A DNA stretch of 64,000 nt, taken from NCBI RefSeq assembly GCF_000482705.1, contig NZ_AXWO01000004.1, positions 1 through 64,000 on the forward strand. The letters run 5' to 3'. Below are positions 4,559 to 40,721 of the stretch, piece by piece. Every line of letters begins with the position of its first letter. The stretch's first letter is position 1. The notes below the pieces were generated by a model. It did no database searches. It was not told the DNA's origin and saw only the letters and a program-made list of their open reading frames with translations. Position numbers and translations under genes: made by a program. Source of the DNA: Glycomyces arizonensis DSM 44726 (lineage in GTDB: Bacteria; Actinomycetota; Actinomycetes; Mycobacteriales; Micromonosporaceae).

Positions 4559-5530
4559 TTAGGCGTGCAGAAGCTCGGTCGAGACCGTCCAGAGTCGCTC
4601 GGCGAGAGCGGGGTCGAGCGCCCATTCCTTGACACCATGGGGATGCTGCGCAAGGTCGGCGTCATTCGGCACGGTGTAAGCCTCTTGCGCGTCATCGAGG
4701 TAGTGGCCGCCGGAGTGGGCGAAGGCCGGGAAGACGGCCGCCACAATGCTGGTCGCGGCCCCCTGTTCGATCGTCTTGTAGGTGAAGAGGCCGGCGGCCT
4801 CGGCGGCGTCGAGCGACTGCCGCTGCTGTGGTGTGAAATTCCTTTGCAGTCCCGTGGCGACGCCGCCGGGGTTCACGGTGTTGGCGACGATCCCATCCGG
4901 TGCCCACAGGCGGGTGGCATGGACGGCGAACAGGGAATTCGCCGTCTTCGACTGGGCGTAGGCGATCTGCGGGTCGTAGCTGCGGCGTTGGAAGTGAAGG
5001 TCGTCGAAGTCGATGCCCGAACGCATGTGCGCGGTCGAACTCACCGAGACGATCCGGGCGCCGTCTCGGTCGGACGCGCCCAGAGCCAGGGCGCTGCGCA
5101 GACCGGTGGCGAGGGCGAAATGGCCGAGATGGTTGGTTGCGAACTGCAGCTCCCAGCCTTCACGGGTTCGTTCGTAGCCGCCGGTGACCACACCTGCGTT
5201 GTTGACCAGCAGGTGCAGCGGGCCGCGCCAAGCCTCGACGAATCGTGCGATGGTCGTCGTATCGGCGAGGTCGAGCTGGGCTACCTGGGGCCGGGCTCTT
5301 CCAGTGGAGCTCGCGATCGCGTCAGCGACCGTGCCACCCGCAGTGGTGTTCCTGACAGCCAGGGTGACCTGTGCTCCGGCAGCGGTCAATGCGCGAGCGG
5401 TCTCGATCCCGATACCGGAGGAACCTCCCGTCACGATGGTGCGGACGCCGGTCAGGTCGAGGCCTTGGAGCACGTCGTCTGCGGTGCTGGCGGCGGTGAA
5501 GGGAGTGGAGATGAGCGCAGGATCGGTCAC
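4559..5530 (-). CDS. Short-chain dehydrogenase/reductase (retinol-dehydrogenase-like)
   Basis: A 323-residue classical SDR. The cofactor motif TGGSSGIG is at residues 34-41, NNAG follows near 100, and the catalytic YAQSK motif lies near 195, so the NAD(P)-dependent oxidoreductase core is complete. The length and C-terminal region resemble the WW-domain oxidoreductase/retinol-dehydrogenase-like branch common in actinomycetes. The substrate is unknown. GTG 5530 is chosen as start. A longer frame from 5557 would begin inside the operator palindrome. The gene is divergent from a TetR gene and is very likely its target. Confidence 0.85.
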   Translation of the reverse strand: MTDPALISTPFTAASTADDVLQGLDLTGVRTIVTGGSSGIGIETARALTAAGAQVTLAVRNTTAGGTVADAIASSTGRARPQVAQLDLADTTTIARFVEAWRGPLHLLVNNAGVVTGGYERTREGWELQFATNHLGHFALATGLRSALALGASDRDGARIVSVSSTAHMRSGIDFDDLHFQRRSYDPQIAYAQSKTANSLFAVHATRLWAPDGIVANTVNPGGVATGLQRNFTPQQRQSLDAAEAAGLFTYKTIEQGAATSIVAAVFPAFAHSGGHYLDDAQEAYTVPNDADLAQHPHGVKEWALDPALAERLWTVSTELLHA

Positions 5531-5536
5531 GACGAG

Positions 5537-5568
5537 AACTATACAAGATATATTCAACTTGTATAGTT
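5537..5568. promoter_or_regulatory. TetR operator candidate (32-bp inverted repeat)
   Basis: Perfect 11-bp arms, AACTATACAAG at 5537-5547 and CTTGTATAGTT at 5558-5568, are separated by a 10-nt AT-rich spacer. The site lies between the divergent SDR and TetR genes and overlaps the likely promoters (TATAGTT and TATAGGCT nearby). Binding by the adjacent TetR is inferred. Confidence 0.8.
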
Positions 5569-5592
5569 AGTATAGGCTCGTATGATCATTCC

Positions 5593-6165
5593 ATGAGCAG
5601 TCCCGATCTCGGTCAGCCGTCCCCTACCACCCTCGATATCAGTCGACGGGCCATGGTCTTGGACGCCGCCCTGACCACGTTCGCGCGATTCGGCTACAGG
5701 AAGACCTCGATGGAGGAGGTGGCGCGGGCGGCGCACATCTCCCGGCCAGGGCTCTACTTTCTCTTCTCTTCCAAAGAGACCCTGTTCCGTGCCGCGGTCA
5801 CCCAGGCCCTGGAACGCGACCTCGCCGCGGTCGAGCGCGTTCTGGCCGACACCGGACGGCTCCTGCCGGAGCGCCTCATCGAGGCGTTCGATCAGTGGGC
5901 GGGCCGCTACGTCGGCCCATTGACGCGCGATGTCACGGAAGTCATCGAGGCCAACCCGGACCTGCTGGGCGAGATGGTCGCGACCGCGCCACGGCGTTTC
6001 GAGGCACTGCTCACCGATGCGATCGCCGCGGAGATCGGGCGGAAGACGGCGCTTGCCGTCGCCCAGACGATGATCAGCGCTTCGATCGGCCTCAAACATC
6101 AGGCACCCTCACGGGAGTTCTTTCTCGAACGGCTGAAGGCCGCCATCGCTCTGCTTGTCCGCTGA
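5593..6165 (+). CDS. TetR/AcrR-family transcriptional regulator
   Basis: A 190-residue one-component regulator. The N-terminal helix-turn-helix spans about residues 18-65 (TSMEEVARAAHISRPGLYFL and SSKETLF), and the C-terminal helical half is the ligand-binding and dimerisation domain. ATG 5593 lies 24 nt after the palindrome. The gene is divergent from the SDR gene and probably represses both itself and the SDR until a ligand, perhaps the SDR substrate, binds. The length is normal for the family. The ligand cannot be deduced. Confidence 0.9.
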   Translation: MSSPDLGQPSPTTLDISRRAMVLDAALTTFARFGYRKTSMEEVARAAHISRPGLYFLFSSKETLFRAAVTQALERDLAAVERVLADTGRLLPERLIEAFDQWAGRYVGPLTRDVTEVIEANPDLLGEMVATAPRRFEALLTDAIAAEIGRKTALAVAQTMISASIGLKHQAPSREFFLERLKAAIALLVR

Positions 6166-28897: not shown

Positions 28898-29635
28898 GCC
28901 TTCGACGCGGTGGACGATCTGCGCGGCGGCCTGGTCGCGGGGTGTGATCGTGAGCCGGTCGATGTTGACGTGCGCGGGGCGCGTCGCCACCCAGGCGACG
29001 GACTCGGCGACGTCGTCGGCGGTCAGCGGCGTCATGCCGCGGTAGACGGCATCGGCCTTCTCGCGGTCGCCCTCGAAGCGGACGACGCTGAACTCGGTCT
29101 CGACCATGCCGGGGTCGATCTCGCAGACGCGCACCGGCTGCCCGACGAGCTCCAGGCGCAGGACGCGGGTGAGTGCGGCCTCGGCGTGCTTGGCGGCGTT
29201 GTAGCCGGAGCCGCCGGGGTACGGCTCGTGGGCGGCGATCGAGGCGATCGTGACGACCTGCCCGTCGCCGGAGGCGATGAGCCGCGGCAGCAGCGCCTTG
29301 GTGACGCGCACGGTGCCGAGGACGTTGACCTCGTACATCCGCTGCCAGTCGTCCAGGTCGGCCTCGGCGACCGAGGCGAGCCCGAACGCGCCGCCGGCGT
29401 TGTTGACCAGTACGTCGCAGCGCTCGATCCGGGAGGCAAACGCTTCCACGGAGGTGTCGTCGGTGACGTCCAGCGGCAGCGGCGTCCCGCTACATTCGGC
29501 GGCGACTTCGGCGAGGCGGTCGGCGCGCCGGGCGCCGAGCACCACGTCGAATCCGGCTCGCGCCAGGGCTTTCGCCGAGGCGGCGCCGATGCCGCTGCTG
29601 GCCCCGGTGACGACGGCGACGGGTCGATCGCTCAT
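28895..29635 (-). CDS. Short-chain dehydrogenase/reductase (YdfG-like)
   Basis: A 246-residue classical SDR. The N-terminal cofactor motif TGASSGIG is at residues 10-17, RRADRL after strand 2 suggests NADP(H), NNAGGAFGLA follows, and the active site is S...YNAAKHA. The length and C-terminal region match the YdfG/serine-3-hydroxy acid dehydrogenase group, which reduces or oxidises short 3-hydroxy acids and aldehydes. Both the substrate and the pathway are unknown. It is transcribed toward the TetR gene, and its start lies over 100 bp before the metE riboswitch, which is on the other strand. Confidence 0.87.
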   Translation of the reverse strand: MSDRPVAVVTGASSGIGAASAKALARAGFDVVLGARRADRLAEVAAECSGTPLPLDVTDDTSVEAFASRIERCDVLVNNAGGAFGLASVAEADLDDWQRMYEVNVLGTVRVTKALLPRLIASGDGQVVTIASIAAHEPYPGGSGYNAAKHAEAALTRVLRLELVGQPVRVCEIDPGMVETEFSVVRFEGDREKADAVYRGMTPLTADDVAESVAWVATRPAHVNIDRLTITPRDQAAAQIVHRVEG

Positions 29636-29749
29636 GGTTCCTCCGTGCTGGTGCGGTTTCGCCCGTGACGATACCGATCCCGGCCACTGGGAACCAGTGG
29701 TGCACGCCTACATGTGCATCGCCGAACGGCCGGTGACGCCATGCCCGCC

Positions 29750-30060
29750 CGTACCATCGGAGTCGACGCCGGTTCCGGGACGGCGGCCAGTCGCCCCGGC
29801 CAAGAGGGAACCTGGTGCGAATCCAGGACTGCCCCGCAGCGGTGAGTGGGAACGAAAGCCGTCAAGAGCACTTGGTCCCGATCCTATAACTTATATTTTA
29901 TAATATATAACCTGCGATCTTCCTATGTCCTATATCGTATAAGATACGAGTTATAGGATATAAGATGTAATATATGTTATAGCTATAGGATATAATCTAT
30001 AGGGATGGGACCTGGGAAGCGACGGCCGGTAGGCACCGGGTGAAGGCCCGGCCTCGGTGA
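29750..30060 (+). promoter_or_regulatory. Cobalamin (B12) riboswitch upstream of metE
   Basis: The core landmarks are plain: AAGAGGGAA before CTGGTGCGAATCCAG, then ACTGCCCCGCAGCGGTGAGT (29829-29848) and AACGAAAGCC, and a B12-box-like CTGGGAAGCGACGGCCGG at 30012-30029. Outer limits are approximate. In the known class, adenosyl- or methylcobalamin binding lowers expression of B12-independent enzymes such as MetE. A strong hairpin (CCGCGCGC/GCGCGCGG, 30118-30137) before the start codon may be part of the expression platform. A peripheral stem is greatly extended by AT-rich DNA. Confidence 0.9.
29885..30001 (+). other. AT-rich insert within the riboswitch
   Basis: By hand count 28 of 117 bases are G or C (24%), in a genome near 70%. 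The flanks pair as GGTCCC (29874-29879) with GGGACC (30007-30012), continuing through ATCC/GGGAT and TATA/TATA, so the insert lengthens one arm without breaking the core. Inside is a 12-bp hairpin at 29929-29957 (CCTATATCGTAT / ATACGA-gt-TATAGG). Confidence 0.8.
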
Positions 30061-30170
30061 GGCTTGCGAGTCGCGAGTCCGTGGAGGAGCCCGCGAGTCC
30101 GAATACCTGCCGGTGTGCCGCGCGCATGGGCGCGCGGTCCACGCTGTCGCACGTTCGAGGGAACTGACAC

Positions 30171-32435
30171 ATGAACGACTCGAAGAAGACCGTGCACGCC
30201 ACGGTCCTCGGCTACCCGCGCATCGGCGCGGGCCGCGAACTCAAACGCGCCGTCGAGGCGCACTGGTCGGGGCGGCTCGACGAGGCCGGGCTCGAAGCGG
30301 CCGCCGCCGCGATCCGCTCCGAAATGCTCGACGACCTCGCCTCGGCGGGAATGGACTCCGTCCCGACCGGCGTGTTCTCGCTGTACGACCACGTGCTCGA
30401 CACCGCCGTAGCGGTCGACGCGATCGCGCCCAGGCACCGCCGCGAAACCGAACTGGCCTCCTATTTCGCCGCCGCGCGCGGCGACGACACCGCCGCGCCG
30501 CTCGAGATGACGAAGTGGTTCGACACGAACTACCACTACCTGGTCCCCGAGATCGGGCCCGACACCGCTTTCCACGCCAGGCCCGGCAAGGCCCTGGCCG
30601 AGTACCGCGAAGCCCGCGAGCGTGGTCTGGACGCCCGCCCCATCCTGCTCGGGCCGGTCTCGTTCCTGCTGCTGGCCAAGGCGACCGGCGACGCCCCGAG
30701 CGGCTTCGAGCCGCTCGACCGCATCGGCGAGCTCACCGCCGTCTATGCCGATCTCCTGTCCGCACTCGTCGAGGCCGGCGCCGACCGGATCCAGCTCGAC
30801 GAGCCCGCCCTGTGCGCCGACCGCACCGAGGCCGAACTCGAAGCGGTCAAGGCGGCCTATGAGCATCTGAACGGCGTCGCGGAACTGCTCGTGACCGGCG
30901 GCTACGGGCCCCTTGGCGAATCACTGCCGGTGCTCGTGGAGGCGGGCGTCCCGGGCATCGCGCTCGACCTCGTCCGCGGGCGCGTCGACATCGACGTCCT
31001 TGAGTCGCTGGATGTTTCACGTGAAACATTCGTCTCGGCCGGAGTGGTCGACGGACGCAACATCTGGCGCACCGACCTGCTCGCCGCCGCCGCGGACCTC
31101 GAACGGCTCCACCGCGTCACCGACCGGCTCGGCGTCTCCTCCTCGTGCTCGCTGCTCCACGTCCCGGTCGATCTGGACGCCGAGACCGAGCTGCCTGCGT
31201 CGCTGAAGGAGCGGCTCGCGTTCGCGCGCCAGAAGCTCCGCGAGATCGCGAGCCTCGCCGAAGCGGGCGCCCCGCGCCTCCAGCGCCCGGCGGCCCCGGA
31301 CGACTGGCGCGACGAGACCGTCCGCTCCCGCCTCGCCGCCCTCCCCGAGGACGCCGACCGCCGCGTCGACTACGCCGAACGCGTCGCCGCGCAAGGCGAA
31401 CTGCCCACGTTGCCGACCACCACCATCGGCTCCTTCCCGCAGACCGCCGAGCTCCGCAAGGCTCGCGCCGCCCACCGGCGCGGGCTGATGATCGACGCCG
31501 ATTACCACGCGCGCATGCGCGCCGAGATCGCCGCCGTCATCGCCGAGCAGGAGAAGCTCGGCATCGACGTCCTCGTCCACGGCGAGCCCGAACGCAACGA
31601 CATGGTCCAGTACTTCGCCGAGCAGCTCACCGGCTTCGCGACCACCGCCGCCGGGTGGGTCCAGTCGTACGGCTCGCGGTGCGTGCGCCCGCCGATCCTC
31701 TACGCCGACGTCGCGCGCACCGGCCCGATGACCGCCGAGTGGACCTCGTACGCCCAGTCGCTCACCGACAAGCCGGTCAAGGGCATGCTCACCGGCCCGG
31801 TGACCATCCTCGCGTGGTCGTTCGTCCGCGACGACCAGCCGCTGGCCGACACCGCCGACCAAGTGGCCCTGGCGCTGCGCGACGAGGTGGCCGACCTCGA
31901 ATCGGCCGGGACCGCGATCATCCAGGTCGACGAGCCCGCCCTCCGCGAGCTCATGCCGCTGCGCCGGGACGGCCGAGGCGCCTACAAGGCGTGGGCCACG
32001 CGCGCCTTCCGCATCGCCACCTCCGGCGTGCGGCCCGAGACGCAGATCCACACCCACCTGTGCTACTCGGAGTTCGGCGACGTCATCGACGCGATCGCCG
32101 ACCTCGACGCGGACGTGACCTCGATCGAGGCGTCCCGTTCGAAGATGGAGGTCCTCGCCGACCTCGACCGCGCCGACCACCGACGCGGCCAGGACCAATC
32201 CTCCGCTCGCAAGCTTCGCCAAGTGGGCCCGGGCGTGTGGGACATCCACTCCCCGCGCGTGCCCTCGGCCGAGGAGATGGCCGCCTCCCTGCGGCTCGCC
32301 GTCGCCGCCGTCGACCCGAAGCGCATCTGGGTCAACCCCGACTGCGGGCTGAAGACCCGCCGGTACGAGGAGGTTCGCCCCGCCCTGGCGAACATGGTCG
32401 AAGCCGCCCGAACCGTCCGAGGCGAACTCGCATGA
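30171..32435 (+). CDS. metE: Cobalamin-independent methionine synthase
   Basis: A 754-residue enzyme that transfers the methyl group of 5-methyltetrahydropteroyl-polyglutamate to homocysteine, the last step of methionine synthesis. The N-terminal half is the duplicated barrel used for folate binding (LGYPRIGAGRELKRAVEAHW at residues 12-31). The C-terminal catalytic barrel has the homocysteine site (TTTIGSFPQT) and the zinc ligands IHTHLCYSEF and DCGLKTRR. Full length and intact. ATG 30171 follows GAGGGAA. Expression should fall when B12 is plentiful, through the riboswitch upstream, implying a B12-dependent MetH elsewhere. A perfect parS site lies inside the coding sequence. Confidence 0.96.
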   Translation: MNDSKKTVHATVLGYPRIGAGRELKRAVEAHWSGRLDEAGLEAAAAAIRSEMLDDLASAGMDSVPTGVFSLYDHVLDTAVAVDAIAPRHRRETELASYFAAARGDDTAAPLEMTKWFDTNYHYLVPEIGPDTAFHARPGKALAEYREARERGLDARPILLGPVSFLLLAKATGDAPSGFEPLDRIGELTAVYADLLSALVEAGADRIQLDEPALCADRTEAELEAVKAAYEHLNGVAELLVTGGYGPLGESLPVLVEAGVPGIALDLVRGRVDIDVLESLDVSRETFVSAGVVDGRNIWRTDLLAAAADLERLHRVTDRLGVSSSCSLLHVPVDLDAETELPASLKERLAFARQKLREIASLAEAGAPRLQRPAAPDDWRDETVRSRLAALPEDADRRVDYAERVAAQGELPTLPTTTIGSFPQTAELRKARAAHRRGLMIDADYHARMRAEIAAVIAEQEKLGIDVLVHGEPERNDMVQYFAEQLTGFATTAAGWVQSYGSRCVRPPILYADVARTGPMTAEWTSYAQSLTDKPVKGMLTGPVTILAWSFVRDDQPLADTADQVALALRDEVADLESAGTAIIQVDEPALRELMPLRRDGRGAYKAWATRAFRIATSGVRPETQIHTHLCYSEFGDVIDAIADLDADVTSIEASRSKMEVLADLDRADHRRGQDQSSARKLRQVGPGVWDIHSPRVPSAEEMAASLRLAVAAVDPKRIWVNPDCGLKTRRYEEVRPALANMVEAARTVRGELA
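31013..31028. other. parS centromere site inside metE
   Basis: TGTTTCACGTGAAACA is identical to the consensus ParB-binding site of bacterial chromosomes. It is read as part of Asp-Val-Ser-Arg-Glu-Thr in metE. ParB would load here and help segregate the origin region. No second copy was seen in the window. Confidence 0.93.
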
Positions 32436-40668: not shown

Positions 40669-40721
40669 CACTGCGGAGGTTATAGGCTATATGGGTCATA
40701 TAGCCTATAACCTCCGCAGTG
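40669..40721. repeat. Perfect 25-bp AT-rich hairpin with 3-nt loop
   Basis: The left arm at 40669-40693 begins CACTGCGGAGG and ends TTATAGGCTATATG. The loop is GGT and the right arm at 40697-40721 is fully complementary. It stands between the SnoaL-like gene (stop 40842) and the HAD gene (start 40612), both on the minus strand. The centre is far more AT-rich than the genome. Confidence 0.9.

Follow-up and report, generated by a model that had tools for sequence, protein, structure and literature searches.

The cobalamin riboswitch upstream of metE in Glycomyces arizonensis DSM 44726 carries, in one hairpin of a side domain, an AT-rich insert in which TATA recurs in a 7-nt phase, and we consider it fairly probable that this insert is a copy of a lineage-specific, REP-like, heptad-phased repeat family that occupies hairpin slots in this genome, at gene ends and here in a riboswitch arm. 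The known part of this observation is the variable insertion in a riboswitch side arm, and the new part is the identity of the insert as a repeat. Extremely AT-rich repeats would then occupy hairpin positions in a genome of 70% G+C, including one in a riboswitch that is apparently left unbroken. In the mechanism that we propose, arrays of the family word TATA-D-S-H, often inverted and hairpin-forming, would occupy the hairpin slots of this Glycomyces genome; the usual slot would be the gene 3′ end, where an array would stand in place of a GC-rich terminator-like hairpin and not accompany it. In the metE leader, the slot would be the variable hairpin in the side domain of the riboswitch, and the array there would be a passive, self-contained stem on GGTCCC/GGGACC, with no effect on B12 sensing or on the expression platform.

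The metE riboswitch and its enlarged arm

The window, that is, the whole stretch of 64,000 nucleotides that was analysed, has a G+C content of 70.2%. A cmscan search placed a cobalamin riboswitch aptamer (RF00174) on its plus strand at 29753..30128 with 74 bits (E 1.1e-17), well above the gathering score of 31.5 bits; the match covers all 189 model positions (1-189), and a whole-genome search recovered it at the same position. The B12-related gene downstream, metE, begins 42 nt past the end of the match (30171..32435, plus strand) and is the presumed regulated gene; its 754-aa ORF encodes a B12-independent methionine synthase (NCBIfam PRK05222, 999 bits, cut-off 541). The first-pass annotation, which had described a conserved riboswitch core before metE, was therefore right on this point. 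A second, weaker cobalamin riboswitch match lies on the minus strand of the same contig (C4:183420-183577, L215 3420-3577; 33.7 bits, 158 nt). No terminator-like site was found in 29600-30300.

The enlarged hairpin arm of the aptamer side domain (29874..30012, plus strand) is closed by GGTCCC (29874-29879) and GGGACC (30007-30012), and its site is the apical loop of the side hairpin, for which the Rfam model has five positions. Enclosed by this clamp is the AT-rich insert, a member of the dispersed family described below (29880..30006, plus strand), which is 127 nt long and has a G+C content of 26.8% (34 bases); an AT-rich stretch had been reported between the two elements before, and only its size (117 nt, 28 G+C, 24%) needed correction. 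The repeated words reported at the same time are present, with three copies of TATAGG, two of CCTATA and one of TTATAGG, and the regularity that had not been named is the 7-nt phase of TATA. Rfam also matched the insert weakly to MIR6224 (26 bits, far below the gathering score of 171; E 0.029), which we took as an artefact of an AT-rich hairpin. Further AT-rich islands lie in the window at 5518-5602, with the inverted words AACTATACAAG and CTTGTATAGTT and a TATA spacing that is not 7, and at 1047-1132.

We then examined the predicted fold of the arm. The segment 29868-30018 folds at -54.3 kcal/mol, compared to a mean of -32.7 for dinucleotide shuffles (z -6.1), and none of 200 shuffles was as good, so the structure of the arm is more than chance and the insert has, as had been proposed, a hairpin of its own. 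In the 408-nt leader, 54.9 predicted pairs are expected within the arm and 0.14 crossing out of it, and exchanging the insert for a 4-nt GAAA loop left the predicted state unchanged at 269/269 other leader positions. In silico, the arm thus behaves as an autonomous stem that leaves the rest of the leader fold unaffected, and for the riboswitch it would be a "variable insertion", a known phenomenon. Both the predicted fold and the length of the homologous loop, which varies between 9 and 138 nt among the Glycomyces species, agree with what defines such insertions, namely a non-conserved stem-loop at a tolerant site with an undisturbed core. Hence, the earlier suggestion of a harmless mobile hairpin that keeps the core pairing stands for its harmless, core-keeping part in silico, and its dispersed part is borne out by membership of the family; the family may be mobile, and its riboswitch copy would be neutral for B12 control.

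According to the accessible part of the work of Barrick and Breaker (2007, PMC2258182), long insertions that lack conservation are tolerated by many riboswitches at particular sites, where they typically form stem-loops and leave the core undisturbed; an optional P8-P10-P11 domain is described there as well. Compared to the RF00174 variable insertions in that account, the metE riboswitch is alike in core and gene context, and it differs in that its insert would come from a genome-wide repeat family and has the opposite base composition. The M. tuberculosis metE B12 riboswitch has, in the accessible part of its description, a large P6 extension with a second four-way junction (PMC11260477), and it is to this type of P6 side domain that the Glycomyces arm most likely belongs; that part does not speak of an AT-rich repeat insert in the M. 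tuberculosis switch, unlike in Glycomyces, which has one. Nothing on Glycomyces riboswitches was found in the open-access literature.

The homologous loop is short, 9-13 nt, in 15 congeners; by the same measure, it reaches 32-52 nt in G001, G003, G013, G020 and G021 and 138 nt in G. arizonensis (G000). In a midpoint-rooted tree of metE, a branch with a support of 100/100 separates the seven species whose arm is enlarged from all others, and members of other genera of the bacterial family (e.g., G022, G024, G028 and G035) have short loops by eye, which makes a single enlargement of the arm the simpler reading. The tip of the arm has been rewritten more than once, since three of the seven enlarged arms (G000, G010 and G020) contain family words and the other four are GC-rich. 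The G010 arm contains TCCTATAGGATATATCCTATAGGA in strict 7-nt phase, read by eye and outside the pattern of the script; the words of the G020 arm are looser, with two TATAs 8 apart, which counts against the repeat-family reading. Between the nearest species, sequence and size are unrelated, as the loop is a GC-rich one of 52 nt in G013 and an AT-rich one of 32 nt in G020.

These data bear on whether the arm could be a new functional arm, sensing a second ligand or temperature, as the first-pass annotation had also considered, or a protein. The enlargement of the arm throughout a clade of seven species would fit such a role, as would the riboswitch copy being the second most fully paired among the 32 arrays described below (81%, z -6.0). 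Against it stand the short loop in 15/22 species and the lack of relation in sequence and size between the nearest ones, as well as the almost nil predicted contact with the core. The predicted arm pairs are nearly constant from 20 °C (54.5) to 65 °C (50.2) and fall to 41.9 at 75 °C, which speaks against a thermometer, and a second ligand found no support either; altogether, we regard a functional arm as very unlikely. Even less credit can be given to the idea that the insert supplies a promoter within the leader, by which the riboswitch would be bypassed or opposed. The one sigma-70-like match (minus strand, 29931-29902; shuffles mean 0.2) reaches only 9/12, which is weak, and AT-rich DNA readily yields such matches, whereas the plus strand of the insert has none, in a scan that covers promoters of the sigma-70-like type among the types of actinomycetes.

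A repeat family with TATA in 7-nt phase

A search of the G. arizonensis genome with the arm returned, besides the arm itself, seven other matches at six places (E<=1e-3), all of which are AT-rich islands with unlike flanks and TATA spacings of mostly 7. The phase was then counted in a sample of 757 kb (400 kb of contig 1 and the entire 357-kb contig 4), about 15% of the genome. TATA pairs exactly 7 apart occur 66 times in the 400 kb and 82 times in the 357 kb, compared to at most 8 for any other spacing below 14. Among the triplets between 7-spaced TATAs (n=143), the first base is C in 4, the last is G in 9 and the middle is G or C in 112; the family word is TATA-D-S-H, with D not C, S G or C, and H not G.

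The triple pattern TATANNNTATANNNTATA occurs 213 times in this genome, as opposed to 10 times for the reversed control. In the 21 congeners its count ranges from 0 to 17 and is clearly above the control in G001, G010, G011 and G016; in several others it is equal to, below or near the control (e.g., G003 1/1 and G004 2/1). The same search in 39 other genomes gave one genome with a single match, and in a class-wide sample of 393 other genomes the pattern turned up in four, never more than once per genome. In the open-access literature on Glycomyces, on heptanucleotide or AT-rich palindromic repeats and on repeats within riboswitches, as far as its text was accessible, the family was not recognisable.

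The window contains a second family member, found by an inverted-repeat scan on the minus strand at 40669..40721; its arms are 25 bp long and enclose a loop of 3 nt. It has a GC-rich base and a TATAGGC-type tip, with TATA pairs at 40681 and 40699; its distance to a gene 3′ end is 132 bp, and its fold has a z of -15.1.

This recurrence, with different sequences within G. arizonensis and in smaller forms in other assemblies, also bears on an assembly or sequencing artefact. The assembly is a draft of 49 contigs, which could favour such an explanation, but the riboswitch array lies inside a contig of 357 kb, and an artefact is scarcely credible. It had been anticipated that the insert might prove variable between genomes as an assembly artefact; it is indeed variable, and a repeat family accounts for this instead of an artefact.

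Gene 3′ ends and the folding of the arrays

To describe the placement of the family, genes were called by a codon-usage script, so that the gene ends are those of this caller and not of a curated annotation, and arrays were defined as clusters of two or more TATA pairs, which kept 32 and dropped 5/37 clusters with a single pair. Eighteen of the 32 arrays lie between genes of the same direction, nine between convergent genes and two between divergent genes, and three overlap a gene 3′ end by a few bases; the riboswitch copy belongs to the two in divergent regions, so its placement is atypical. For 23/32 arrays a gene 3′ end is no more than 45 bp away, compared to a mean of 4.0 and a maximum of 11 in 2000 random intergenic placements. 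In the congeners with short forms of the repeat, 18/23 loci have a 3′ end at 60 bp or less, a count without a random-placement control that comprises all 14 triple sites of G010, 4/17 of G011 and 5/12 of G016, with one duplicated G011 locus (L050 and L147) counted once. An Rfam scan of 140 kb holding 7/9 of the arrays that are farther than 45 bp from any 3′ end, with C4:40681 outside it and the riboswitch array scanned separately, gave three matches, all of them off the arrays: the second cobalamin riboswitch, a TPP riboswitch and a tRNA.

We next compared array ends with other gene ends for GC-rich hairpins. With the arrays masked, a GC hairpin was found within 60 nt past the stop at 1/19 array ends and 108/270 others (p 0.0023), within 90 nt at 4/17 and 115/225 (p 0.042) and within 120 nt at 3/15 and 111/185 (p 0.0049). 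The deficit had the same direction in all nine parameter settings, with uncorrected p values of 0.0005 to 0.046, and, as some convergent arrays count for both ends, the 19 ends are not fully independent. An unmasked version of the test (3/30 vs 120/231) was confounded because the arrays fill the space, and it was superseded by the masked one. Two observations count against the slot reading: a GC hairpin is present at only about 40% of the other 3′ ends, and repeat words were found in only 2/10 orthologous 3′ flanks (for seven arrays; G013, G003 and G001). At the 3′ end orthologous to C4:71613, a GC hairpin lies right past the stop in G013 and G003 (by eye), and G001 has a short TCCTATAGGAT repeat; at the C4:163674 junction, G003 has an array of its own and G001 has none. 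The array at C4:264096 consists of a hairpin followed by TTTTT, which is one clear T-tract and not a systematic count.

The placement suggests that the 3′ copies may serve as terminators or as protecting ends, and the family could have spread either by copying or by the growth of short palindromic seeds. If the heptad arrays are indeed gene-end signals, they would represent an unusual type of terminator or RNA-protecting end in actinomycetes. A bolder version, which we hold to be improbable, is a grammar-based class of 3′-end hairpins with TATA-D-S-H heptad arms and a dedicated factor, which would replace GC terminators and riboswitch side arms and might derive from the word ATCCTATAGGAT discussed below; the arms of this class would, just as improbably, differ in sequence at every gene and keep a constant phase.

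The arrays do fold, and 27/32 have a z below -2 (mean -4.2). However, their own halves pair better than all swapped halves in only 9/32 arrays, and facing NNN triplets are exact complements in 10/48 cases (random pairing mean 1.9, maximum 10), which indicates that the TATA phase is kept better than the pairing. The bias towards sense over antisense folding was not significant (18 vs 11, p 0.16), and an RNA role of the arrays is thus not demonstrated. The arrays do have a hairpin character, which is preserved unevenly, and they may act at the DNA level.

This leads to the strongest alternative, although we still judge it unlikely, according to which the arrays are DNA-level binding sites of a nucleoid protein or regulator, the hairpins are a by-product and the riboswitch copy sits in a tolerant loop. 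The better keeping of the phase than of complementarity (10/48) and the absence of a strand bias both fit this explanation, as does the self-complementary consensus TATADSH with which the words agree. On the other hand, a protein that reads TATA would not need long, element-specific arms with GC-rich parts, such as those at C4:40669-40721 and C4:264096, and the lack of other hairpins at array ends fits a terminator-type slot better. The occupation of hairpin slots remains our preferred explanation.

The word ATCCTATAGGAT and known repeat systems

Further evidence for the DNA-site alternative comes from the 12-mer ATCCTATAGGAT, which is present in 22/22 Glycomyces genomes with 1 to 29 copies (control 0). 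From the nine low-copy genomes, 17/25 copies were fetched, and 14/17 of these lie between divergent genes. Eight of these 14 copies, in eight different genomes of the nine, are beside genes for a GntR/FCD regulator and an aldo/keto reductase (L246, L247, L248, L250, L254, L258, L260 and L261), and G. arizonensis retains the word (L279) beside its own aldo/keto reductase gene and its GntR/FCD gene, the latter at C16:12895-13563. Another three of the 14 are beside a GH95 glycosidase gene (the word precedes GH95 genes at L174, L249, L252 and L262), and three lie in the intergene of a 2-hydroxyacid dehydrogenase and a glucose/sorbosone dehydrogenase. The remaining 3/17 copies comprise two close to a gene 3′ end, at distances of 7 and 19 bp, and a third that is close to neither setting. 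The domain scan covered L246, L249, L251 and L261, so that each group is represented by one or two members, and the other members were assigned by BLASTP.

The presence of ATCCTATAGGAT beside the GntR/FCD gene in 8/9 low-copy genomes means that a protein reading it probably exists, and the word is probably the operator of the GntR/FCD regulator divergent from the aldo/keto reductase gene. It also builds the short 3′-end repeats of G010, G011 and G016, and the repeat may either have grown from this operator or share only its word. The Glycomyces genus, in which the repeat ranges from a handful of short copies to an extensive set, offers a natural series for tracing the growth of such a repeat.

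Intergenic heptanucleotide arrays are known from cyanobacteria, where the STRR repeats consist of fixed heptamers. The TAACTGA heptameric direct repeats are also intergenic and, in the main genome described in the accessible part of that report, lie mostly just before start codons (PMC4679880). They are likewise fixed heptamers as far as that text goes, whereas in Glycomyces only TATA and the phase are fixed, and the arrays lie mostly after stop codons and are often inverted. Another comparison is with REP repeats of the GTAG and CGTC families, for which the accessible account describes palindromes dispersed through the genome, most of them 3′ of coding regions and flanked by ORFs in convergent or unidirectional orientation (PMC3733652). 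The Glycomyces family shares with them the dispersed palindromes at gene 3′ ends, although not every array is palindromic, and it differs in that its sequence obeys a 7-nt grammar and not a fixed consensus. The GTAG and CGTC tags occur at only 8 and 7 of the 32 arrays, below the shuffled means of 13.9 and 8.6.

A Y1 (RAYT) transposase was considered as the driver of the repeats and rejected, since its distribution does not track them. Matches to Y1 PF01797 were found in 7/22 genomes: G. arizonensis has only a 31-position fragment, G010, G011 and G016 have none, and the domain is present in G001 (5 triple sites) and G003 (1 triple site).

Two further loci were noted. In G011, a perfect palindrome of TATATCC heptamers directly follows a GC-rich hairpin (L148, C10:21196-21241) and is perhaps a young array. 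In G. arizonensis, a tRNA gene on the minus strand (C4:301873-301943; L221 1873-1943) lies about 90 bp from the heptad array at C4:302034-302103.
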